A stretch of 64,000 bases of DNA from Candidatus Cloacimonas acidaminovorans str. Evry (GTDB lineage Bacteria > Cloacimonadota > Cloacimonadia > Cloacimonadales > Cloacimonadaceae). Below, piece after piece: positions 5,556 to 58,002 of the stretch; positions within the stretch are counted from its first letter, which is position 1; each line of letters opens with the position of its first letter. A program made the position numbers and the translations under genes. The stretch lies in NCBI RefSeq assembly GCF_000146065.2, contig NC_020449.1, forward strand, positions 1,178,001-1,242,000, written 5' to 3'. Under the pieces are notes generated by a model, which saw only the letters and a program-made list of their open reading frames with translations, was not told where the DNA came from and searched no databases.

Positions 5556-5751
5556 ATAACTAATAGCAAACAACCCAAAAGTATAATTAACCACAGCGAT
5601 TTGCTGATCTAAACCCTATTTTATTCCAAATAATCAAGTTGAAATAATGTTCAATATGGTTTCCACATTGGAGAAGCAATTATTCTTTTGCAGAAACAAC
5701 ATTGACTTTTCAATTTAAGACAATTTTCACTATCCTTACTTAGCTTAAAGC

Positions 5752-5810
5752 GTTAATCAAGCGTTAATCTAACCTTAATCAAGCGTTAATAATTAACGCT
5801 TGATTAAGGT
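5752..5810. repeat. 11-nt unit array ending in its own mirror image (copy 1)
   Basis: Three consecutive 11-nt units start at 5752, 5763 and 5774 (GTTAATCAAGC, GTTAATCTAAC, CTTAATCAAGC). The last unit and a half then runs into its reverse complement: ACCTTAATCAAGCGTTAAT (5772-5790), one base, and ATTAACGCTTGATTAAGGT (5792-5810), a perfect 19-bp palindrome with a 1-nt centre. The same architecture with unrelated unit sequences occurs at 17250-17303 and 46483-46537. Confidence 0.85.
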
Positions 5811-5870
5811 ATGATACACCCAAGATTGATGCTTTCCAGAAAGGACAAAAAAACGCTTTAAAATTACTTG

Positions 5871-17019: not shown

Positions 17020-17538
17020 TCTTTAATCTGCACTAAAATTGTTATTGTCTTTTTCTGTCAAGCAAGAACTTTTGCCTCAATCATTAAAAACTTGCCTTGT
17101 TTATGTTACTCGCAACATACAGTATGGCAACATATTACAGTGGTATTTTCCCTTTTTATGATTTTCATCCCCTGCATATTTTGGTTTTAACTTTATATTT
17201 GTTTTTATTCCAAGCTGTTATACCGTTTTTTCTTGCCTTCCTTAATAGCATTGCTTACCCATTGCTTACCCATTGCTAATGGCATTAGTATTGGGTGAGC
17301 AATGCTTCCGTAATGCAGGTAAGAATAATCAGCCAATGCAAGTCAGTAAAAGCGAGGAGTCGTTATTATGTAAGTCAGAAATCATCATCCGGATTTATAA
17401 AATAAAAGGATTTCCGTGCTATAATGGGCACAATTTCTTTCTTTACATTCGGCATTCGGATTTTCCGATAAAAAATGTTCCTTGACAGTTATGTATTGTT
17501 TATTAAAAGGAAAATATGAAAGTAATTGGATTAAATGT
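17020..17538. other. Intergenic stretch with structured 11-nt array and no convincing gene
   Basis: Between the divergent tRNA and deacetylase genes lie a possible tRNA promoter (TTGACA at 17056-17061 on the minus strand), the second 11-nt mirrored array (17250-17303), and an otherwise plain AT-rich sequence. Short open frames here have no ribosome site and no family features. A TTGACA at 17482-17487 and the 8-codon frame at 17516-17542 lie just ahead of the deacetylase start. Confidence 0.6.
17250..17303. repeat. 11-nt unit array ending in its own mirror image (copy 2)
   Basis: Units ATTGCTTACCC (17250-17260), ATTGCTTACCC (17261-17271) and ATTGCTAATGG (17272-17282) are followed by an imperfect reverse complement, CATTAGTATT then GGGTGAGCAAT (17283-17303). 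The palindrome is centred on 17282, spans about 21 bp per arm and has a few mismatches. Unit length, direct-then-inverted order and single-base centre match copies 1 and 3. Confidence 0.8.
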
Positions 17539-37111: not shown

Positions 37112-37312
37112 GCCTGGTTTAACACAGATGATGCCAATTATACCAATTATATTTATAATTGATATATTGTTTTCTGTAAGGACACCGATTTCACGATTTA
37201 CATCATTTCTTGAATGAAAAAGACCATTGCCATTCCTGTACAAACAGGAATCTAGATCATTTTTAGCAAAATAAGTACATTTTCGATATAATAACTTCTT
37301 CCTTAGGGGTAT

Positions 37313-37352
37313 CTCATCATCAACCCATCCTGAAGGTTGGGTTGATGATGAG
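37313..37352. repeat. Perfect 15-bp hairpin
   Basis: CTCATCATCAACCCA (37313-37327), loop TCCTGAAGGT, TGGGTTGATGATGAG (37338-37352). No T-run on either side. The inner TCAACC/GGTTGA arms tie it to the GGTTGATGT family. It lies downstream of iorB. Confidence 0.7.
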
Positions 37353-37413
37353 TTATAAGCAGGGAATAAAATAATCGGTTCTTTAATAATGTAATTAATA
37401 TTTTACGAGAGGG

Positions 37414-45162: not shown

Positions 45163-45860
45163 ATGAACAAAAATTCTAATGAAAGGATGCAAGTCCCCTA
45201 AATGGAACTCAATGTGCGGTACAACTACTTTATTCCAATCTTATTGGTGACAATGTTTATGGTTGGGCAAAAGATGTTTCCGCGGCTGTTTGCGGACCGA
45301 ATTATTGTTCTGCCAGGTTCACCTATAGGATTGAATGCACCGATTTAAGCGGTTTACCTGTTGCTGGAGTTTCAGTTTATAATAGTCAATCCGCCGGAGG
45401 TATTTTTATAAATCCAGCGATTACTAATAGTGCAGGGATTGCTACCGGGGAGCTTTATCCAATGAAAACGCAGATTTGGGTAACTAATCCTATTACCAAT
45501 GAAATAGCTTTTAATACTCAGTTTTTTGCTGAACCAGGAGCTCTTATTCCCTTTTCTGTGCAATTGCCTGTTAGTGTGGAAGAAAATATCGTTTCTATTC
45601 CTGCAGGAAAACTCCATCTATATCCTTCCGTATTAAATCCTCATTGGAACGAAAGTATCCGAATTTCTTATGATACCAAGCTTACAGGCAAGGCAGAACT
45701 TGTTTTATACGATTTGAAAGGACGCCATCTTGCGGAAAAAGTTTATGACCAAAATGAAATTGAATGGCAGCTGCCAAAGCTTTCCAGTGGTATTTATTTT
45801 GTGCGTCTTACAAATCAAGGTAAGGCATTGGGGACAGCTAAACTTATTATACTTAAGTGA
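45163..45860 (+). pseudogene. 5'-truncated type IX secretion (T9SS) cargo gene
   Basis: An excellent ribosome site AAGGAGA (45151-45157) and an ATG (45163) open a frame that stops after 12 codons. From 45183 the next frame is open to 45860 and is clearly coding. Its translation has an Ig-like segment (RIECTDLSGLPVAGVSVYNS) and ends in a typical T9SS sorting tail (LYPSVLNPHWNESI, LYDLKGRHLAEKVY, LSSGIYFVRL, KLIILK). In that frame there is no start codon before 45462, which would fall inside the Ig domain. A start with no signal peptide joined out of frame to a cargo C-terminus points to a deletion. An alternative is a short intact protein from 45462 (132 aa). Confidence 0.6.
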
Positions 45861-46429
45861 AATACGCTTTTCTCCTGCTGTTATTAGCTGAAATTATGAT
45901 GCTTTCCGCTCTCACTTTTGAAGCGGAAGAGCTTAATTTCTATCTGGAAAATGATTTATGGGAAATAGACGGTCTATTTCATTTTGCCAATTACGATTCG
46001 CTTTCCACGCACAAACTGATCTTTTTTCCTGTTCCCAGTGATAGTTTATGCCTACCGCCTAAAATAAAAGCCATAGCCATTCAGGATAGCAATGAAGCGG
46101 AAGTAACTATGCTAAATCAAGCAAAGAACGGTTTCACTTTTTTCCTTTCTCTGCCCGCTCTTTCTTTTTGTTCTTTGCACCTTGATTATACTCAAACCCT
46201 TAAAAGCAATTATGCTAAATATATTATCACGACTACAAATTCCTGGGGTAGACCCTTACCTTACGCCAAATATACTTTGCATCCGGGCATAAATGTGCAA
46301 ATACGCTCTCTTCCTTTCCCTGTGCAGAAACAAGAGGGAAGGAATTATATCTGGGAATTTTACGATTTTGCTCCCGAAAAGGAATTTGAGGTTATCTTCC
46401 AAACCATTTCTGCAGAAGATCAGAACTAA
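45857..46429 (+). CDS. Small secreted protein of unknown function
   Basis: I do not recognise it. The 190-aa product begins with a clear signal peptide (KYAFLLLLLAEIMMLSALTF), then a beta-rich region with no known motifs. The start is GTG, overlapping the upstream T9SS gene stop as GTGA, so it was probably coupled to the T9SS cargo gene when that gene was intact. This may limit its expression now. A role with the cargo in the periplasm or outer membrane is a guess. Confidence 0.6.
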   Translation: MKYAFLLLLLAEIMMLSALTFEAEELNFYLENDLWEIDGLFHFANYDSLSTHKLIFFPVPSDSLCLPPKIKAIAIQDSNEAEVTMLNQAKNGFTFFLSLPALSFCSLHLDYTQTLKSNYAKYIITTTNSWGRPLPYAKYTLHPGINVQIRSLPFPVQKQEGRNYIWEFYDFAPEKEFEVIFQTISAEDQN

Positions 46430-46482
46430 CTATATAGAAACCTATAAAGATAACTTTTCGCACTTAGCCAACACTCATATCC

Positions 46483-46537
46483 TTCCGATATGATTCCCAT
46501 ATCGTTCCCATATCGCGATATGGGAAAGATATGGGAT
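46483..46537. repeat. 11-nt unit array ending in its own mirror image (copy 3)
   Basis: TTCCGATATGA (46483-46493), TTCCCATATCG (46494-46504) and TTCCCATATCG (46505-46515) run straight into CGATATGGGAA (46516-46526) and AGATATGGGAT (46527-46537). The central 22 bp is a perfect palindrome. Five exact 11-nt steps: three direct, two inverted. Confidence 0.88.
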
Positions 46538-46733
46538 CTTATTGATCTATATAACTTTAAAGAAAAGGAAAAAAGAGCGGAAAAAAGTGTTCTATTTTAA
46601 TTCACAATTTTTCAATTTGGAAACCAGTTAAAATGAAGTTGTAAGTGAGATAGTTAGTAAATTGTGGTTTTCTGGAAGGCGGGTGAAAATTGTGAGTCAA
46701 AATTTTCTTTGCTGAATAATCGTGAATCTGACG

Positions 46734-46830
46734 AGGGGCTTACGCCACCATCGCTATCCTTGTGTCGCCCTGACGGGCTTTTTGGCAAAGGGCAGAGAGC
46801 AAAGGGTATCTCAACCCTCTAAACTTTCTC
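46734..46830 (+). repeat. Composite intergenic element, copy A
   Basis: The blocks are GAGGGGCTTACGCC, ATCGCTATCCTTGTGTCGCC, GGCAGAGAGC and ATCTCAACCCTCT. They match, in the same order and spacing, the reverse complement of 36906-37007. It runs into the 9-nt array. Confidence 0.65.
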
Positions 46831-46880
46831 AACCCTCTCAACCCTTTAAACTTTCTCAACCCTCTCAACCTTCTCAACCA
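46809..46880. repeat. Eight-unit 9-nt array TCTCAACCC
   Basis: Consecutive 9-nt units from 46809: TCTCAACCC, TCTAAACTT, TCTCAACCC, TCTCAACCC, TTTAAACTT, TCTCAACCC, TCTCAACCT, TCTCAACCA. The complement (GGTTGAGAG) is repeated four times at 57967-58002. No spacers, so not CRISPR. Confidence 0.85.
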
Positions 46881-57877: not shown

Positions 57878-57966
57878 TATTTTTAACGGGCCTGAACTGA
57901 CAAGAAATATCTGAAAGCGGAGGAGGATTTTTACAAAGAGAGAAAGAAAAGAATTAGGAAGTAAAG

Positions 57967-58002
57967 GGTTGAGAGGGTTGAGAAGGTTGAGAGGGTTGAG
58001 AG
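57967..58002. repeat. Four-unit 9-nt array GGTTGAGAG
   Basis: GGTTGAGAG (57967), GGTTGAGAA (57976), GGTTGAGAG (57985), GGTTGAGAG (57994). The reverse complement of the unit is the repeat at 46809-46880. Confidence 0.85.

Follow-up and report, generated by a model that had tools for sequence, protein, structure and literature searches.

The window analysed here is a 64,000-nucleotide stretch (positions 1178001-1242000) of the complete, 2,246,820-bp genome of Candidatus Cloacimonas acidaminovorans str. Evry (G000). It holds the following mirror-image arrays of 11-base units:

5730-5848 (centre base 5791), no strand: class B element with TTAATC every 11 bases; earlier given as 5752-5810, arm length now taken from 80 aligned copies
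17235-17329 (centre base 17282), no strand: class C element with tip TTCCTTAATAGC and 11-base units ATTGCTTACCC; earlier given as 17250-17303, boundaries now taken from 33 aligned copies
37296-37369 (centre 37332-37333), no strand: class E element with CATCATCAACC-like units, of the same build
46483-46537, no strand: class A element of three direct and two inverted 11-base units with a 0-nt centre, read from the sequence; ~13 related places in the genome
46505-46526, no strand: perfect 22-bp palindrome TTCCCATATCG/CGATATGGGAA at the centre of the class A element, likewise read from the sequence

Direct reading of the class A site gives exactly the five 11-nt steps that a preliminary description of this DNA had reported, three direct (46483-46493, TTCCGATATGA; 46494-46504, TTCCCATATCG; 46505-46515, TTCCCATATCG) and two inverted (46516-46526, CGATATGGGAA; 46527-46537, AGATATGGGAT), and the perfect 22-bp palindrome lies at their centre as claimed. 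For the class B and class C sites the build had been given correctly but the extents had not, each site being longer (~5730-5848 and ~17235-17329), and the class E element had been missed. The observation is real, and far larger in extent than first noted.

All the cited sites belong to dispersed families. Similarity searches, whose copy numbers may be off by a few, found ~13 places in the genome for class A (searched with 46483-46537), ~5 copies for class B (with 5752-5810) and ~44 for class C (with 17250-17303), together with 40 copies of a class D of similar build (unit CCGTAACACTT) and ~13 related places for class E. The sample that was read through comprised ~38% of G000, stretches of 3 kb around additional copies, and portions of the relatives. 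In families A to E the flanks are unrelated between copies. The copies arise by dispersal of ready-made elements; they were not built one by one through template switching. A class A copy at genome position 203219 is identical to the element at 46483-46537 because a 1.4-kb segment has been duplicated; this stretch (window 45183-46588) carries two ORFs and the class A element, and its duplicate near genome position 203000 has 97% identity. A constant architecture with changing unit sequence, as proposed in the preliminary description, is seen both within the genome (classes A to E) and across the genera of the family. The unit sequences, there called unrelated, are so between classes but not within them, each class being itself conserved between species (the class B 35-base core exactly).

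The preference for 11 bases was measured with a palindrome scan (33-base arms, at least 23 pairs, loop of 0-9), the best internal arm period being determined afterwards. In 2.2 Mb from this genome, its congeners and the family, 63 of the 99 long palindromes had period-11 arms, while all other arm periods together accounted for 6. By genome, period 11 was present in 30/43 palindromes of G000, 10/17 of G001, 14/19 of G005, 6/10 of G008 and 0/1 of G004, and in 3/9 from other genera of the family. Control sequence simulated with an order-2 Markov model contained 7 palindromes, irrespective of period, in 1.66 Mb and the E. coli K-12 control a single one, without period, in 100 kb; the same scan found none in 125 kb from other families of the order. 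Lag-11 arrays (at least 18 of 22 matches) numbered 31 in 864 kb of G000 and 0 in Markov-simulated sequence, which excludes a chance origin, and scans at other thresholds gave a concordant result on period 11. The preliminary description had named two refuting outcomes, as many arrays in shuffled sequence and loss of period 11 in other genomes. Both checks came out against refutation, period 11 being kept in G001, G005, G008 and other genera of the family. Further unit sequences with this period were found in G005 (CCTGCCACGAC and ATTACGCATGA), G021 (ATTACGGACTC), G017 (ATTACGGAGTC), G012 (ACCCGTATATC) and G016 (GGGGATCACTA). The spacing at the centre of the elements ranges from 0 to 8 nt.

When 33 class C copies were aligned by their centre, conservation ended ~46 nt away on each side, giving an element of ~93 bp. 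Besides the tip TTCTTCCTTAATAGC it has three units in each arm, and A, T, C and A are nearly invariant at constant places of the unit. The arms are unequal: usually one carries the canonical outer unit and the other ATTRCTGAAGC or similar. The inner units CGG and CTA stand on opposite arms in 21 of the 33 copies, and CGG never occurs on both (probability 0.008 under free pairing, shared descent being ignored). These differences are alike in most copies, which is a mark of inheritance from shared master elements; hairpin-templated correction would equalise the arms, so their inequality also speaks against generation site by site.

Class B was studied in 80 copies from ten assemblies, whose inner 35 bases are identical by search selection. 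Its arms measure ~58 nt, with TTAATC recurring every 11 bases, a tip TTCCTTGCTTG that differs between arms, and only A or T as the centre base. The aligned ends read TTCTTCCTTAATAGC in class C and TTCCTTGCTTGAAGGCG in class B, and over all elements the outer flanks show a strong enrichment of the k-mers CCTTGCT and TTGCTTG. In a class F, from G005, longer inverted repeats stand outside the array. In 38 class B copies from one assembly, which represent few independent events, the inner spacer bases match between arms beyond shuffle: the arms agree in 37 copies at position 19 (28.5 expected, p ~2e-4) and in 38 at position 29 (34.2 expected, p ~8e-4). Class C arms, in contrast, show no covariation and keep standing mismatches, so pairing is kept in one class and not in the other. 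A mini-hairpin at the class B tips was considered as well and is unsupported by base-pair counts. One class C copy is without one 11-mer, its flanks remaining alignable, and one class D copy carries extra units; slippage may add or remove whole 11-base units.

Almost all elements (76 of 77, in four genomes) lie between ORFs, the remaining one falling inside a 106-aa ORF of doubtful reality. The orientations of the flanking genes are those of long spacers generally, and 63 further class B elements are likewise intergenic and without gene-orientation bias; a placement as terminators or promoters was rejected on this ground. An exact search for the class B core CTTAATCAAGCGTTAATNATTAACGCTTGATTAAG through the contigs of 84,980 species gave 88 stretches, and the matches listed (80 of 88) belong to ten assemblies; nine of these carry the label Cloacimonadota or Cloacimonetes, one that of Atribacteria. 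The Atribacteria-labelled contig, JAKPKS010000224.1 (L241), is possibly a mislabelled or misbinned piece of Cloacimonadota. Among the class B loci tested, no pair from different genomes had both flanking genes in common, nor did a comparison of their flanking ORFs among themselves reveal a common neighbour. Since the flanking genes differ and the core is exact, place changes while the core stays. In IMG/VR viral contigs the class C double unit was absent; the class A double unit (ATTCCCATATCATTCCCATATC) is present in one contig of 39.7 kb (L214), possibly a prophage of a Cloacimonadota host.

Orthologous spacers were compared between G000 and G001 using simple ORF calls and reciprocal best hits, and 3 of 23 syntenic spacers hold an element. 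The first has a class A element in place in both genomes, far better conserved than its flanks. The second holds class C in G000 and, in G001, an array of five direct, class A-like units whose mirror half is partial, the two classes standing at nearly the same place (L050 1213-2419 and G001:C32:193704-194301). The third has an element in G001 only, and two further class C copies could not be clearly matched there. Two shared spacers out of 5 do not clearly exceed what the background density of elements would give, which proves neither a hotspot nor a conserved function.

Dispersal of ready-made copies is shown; the choice among the explanations for it draws on indirect evidence. The reading that we prefer, and to which we give about even chances, is that these are REPIN-like non-autonomous hairpin elements, copied by a factor that reads 11-bp units. 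Mobility is favoured because the flanks are unrelated, the intergenic placement is neutral and positions change while the sequence is kept. The sharp ends (~46 nt from the centre in class C, ~58 nt in class B), the matching of class B inner arm bases within one assembly and the shared tip k-mers CCTTGCT/TTGCTTG were counted on the same side. The elements would be miniature and dispersed, ~90-120 bp long, with two ends (for instance the tips TTCCTTGCTTG or TTCTTCCTTAATAG) and a pair of opposed arrays, each of two to four 11-bp units, and would spread as ready-made copies, probably mobilised in trans in a REPIN-like manner. Because the phase of the motif is fixed, we infer that a putative trans-acting protein would most likely read the 11-bp units one by one, roughly one to a helical turn; together, the two symmetric arrays would form the working complex or the mobilised single-strand hairpin. 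Classes within one genome would represent independent lineages whose recognition sequences have diverged.

REPINs, REP doublets that form hairpins and go with RAYT Y1 transposases, consist of paired inverted repeats at random extragenic places, with several groups per genome and compensatory changes (PMC3116915), and they are the closest working model for the elements. Both are ~100 bp long, form a hairpin from two inverted conserved parts, lie outside genes in several groups per genome and show matched arm changes; unlike REPINs, whose arms are a single REP, the present elements have arms made of arrays of 11-base direct units. A GTAG/GGAG or CGTC tag at one palindrome end is a criterion for REPIN/RAYT systems (PMC3733652), but inspection of two classes, B and C, found none. 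As in those systems, the inverted repeats can form hairpins, are multi-copy and extragenic, and share their genome with a Y1 gene: PF01797 matches over the cut-off were found in G000, G001, G002, G004 and G005. The arrays, however, are not specially placed beside these genes. The RAYT-like gene of G001 has no array beside it, the nearest array of L179 being ~4 kb away; in G000 a class C half-array, where no palindrome was scored, lies ~740 bp from the end of the Y1 gene; elsewhere arrays are 0.45-3.2 kb away, as element density predicts. An association with Y1 transposase genes was rejected, being no commoner than that density predicts. REPIN membership is not claimed, because two defining features, the RAYT-flanking repeat and the end tag, were not found. 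Mobility is at its weakest here, no enzyme having been tied to the elements: the arrays are not enriched at Y1 genes and no separated ends were seen in 1.66 Mb. The lack of empty paralogous sites, and of a fixed-length target duplication in the classes tested, also counts against it.

A different possibility, which we consider unlikely, is that the elements are host protein-binding arrays, in which proteins would load symmetrically from the centre onto contiguous 11-bp sites, one to each helical turn, and serve to organise the chromosome or to regulate broadly. Such a function agrees with motif bases that recur at fixed places of the unit and with a class B core identical across species; the orthologous G000/G001 element that is better conserved than its flanks, which counts against mobility, fits it too, and an orthologous spacer whose arrays differ in class between the two species also speaks for it. 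The parC site of plasmid R1 is built of 11-bp units. The ParR-bound centromere repeats of plasmids (PMC9426499) offer a precedent in their uninterrupted short direct repeats, each close to a helical turn in length, but here there are over a hundred chromosomal sites in several classes, each with a mirror half. Binding arrays would moreover need as many proteins as there are classes, at least five unrelated ones per genome, or one very tolerant protein, and they accord poorly with positions that are not kept between species, a centre spacing of 0 to 8 nt and the absence of a preference for promoter or terminator spacers. In a further, equally doubtful scenario, a system specific to Cloacimonadaceae could have a modular protein or paralogous set reading 11-bp units in mirror-image arrays; the geometry of the complex would fix unit length and symmetry, unit sequences would diversify freely, and the elements would serve as substrate for hairpin transposition of a new kind or for organising the chromosome.

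As relics of insertion sequences (MITEs), the elements would consist of the two ends, brought together, of a DDE-type element that is lost or rare and has 11-bp transposase sites in its terminal repeats; this we regard as rather improbable. The elements resemble prokaryotic MITEs (review PMC10969869) in being short, non-coding, multi-copy and dispersed with inverted ends, and their intergenic position, the tips common to families and the outer inverted repeats of class F in G005 are what such relics would show. No parental insertion sequence was found in 1.66 Mb, in which no copy had its ends apart around a gene, as expected of an autonomous form, and, unlike MITEs, the elements showed no fixed-length target duplication outside their ends in any class tested (classes A-D, G005, G008 and the 38-copy assembly). 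Empty paralogous sites were looked for, and none was found.

That the elements act as RNA, in transcribed hairpins serving as terminators, stabilisers or processing sites with 11 bp as one turn of A-form RNA, is very improbable. The predicted hairpins are indeed very stable (z -24.6 for a class B sequence built from the arm consensus and made symmetrical, z -5.7 for the 46483-46537 site) and class B arm bases are matched, but divergent spacers hold elements as often as expected, class C arms retain their mismatches without covariation, and no Rfam covariance model reached its gathering score at the elements; the only matches, sub-threshold, set perfect hairpins against plant microRNA precursors. 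Local generation, in which template switching at the fork or hairpin slippage builds each array in place, as the preliminary description had suggested, is scarcely credible and as the origin of the copies largely refuted: unit numbers that differ by whole units and inner arm bases matched within a genome in class B, as palindrome correction would yield, speak for it, but it would produce a different sequence at every site, whereas identical long sequences with sharp ends and inherited arm differences occupy tens of sites as copies of dispersed families. The length constraint near one helical turn that had been offered beside it is plausible.

To our knowledge, the ERIC repeats of enterobacteria have no 11-base period. 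ERIC / RU-1-type repeats (PMC2759123) are otherwise similar in their length (~127 bp), intergenic position, mirror-image centre, cross-species conservation and lack of a known enzyme, but ERIC is one sequence family, and here several unrelated classes share one unit length. A literature search covering few subscription papers returned nothing relevant on Cloacimonas repeats or 11-bp palindromic arrays, and turned up no described repeat family with an 11-base modular arm. Several unrelated sequence classes with a common 11-base build point to a group of hairpin repeats, mobile or read by a protein, that has not been described, which adds a dispersed palindrome group to a phylum where we found none described. 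Unrelated hairpin classes, with over a hundred elements in the genome, obey a single numerical rule of 11-base units in mirror symmetry about a centre, and fixed geometry with differing sequences is a natural experiment on what a DNA-reading complex needs. The exact 35-base core of class B, present in ten assemblies among the matches listed, is a ready bait for the protein.

Other repeats were noted in passing. In G005 (L184 1060-1300) a long GGATTGAGCA(A)/GGATTAAGCAG direct-repeat run of 10-11 bases, without a mirror half, lies upstream of a Y1 transposase gene. Period-9 tandem repeats (CTCAACCCT / GGTTGAGAG), a separate repeat type, occur at window 46809-46879 and 57965-58002 and elsewhere in the genome, sometimes with a palindrome of their own (G000 2016442). 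Positions 46735-46790 of the window contain a dispersed 50-base sequence (GAGGGGCTTACGCCACCATCGCTATC...TCGCCC) with many related intergenic copies elsewhere in the genome.
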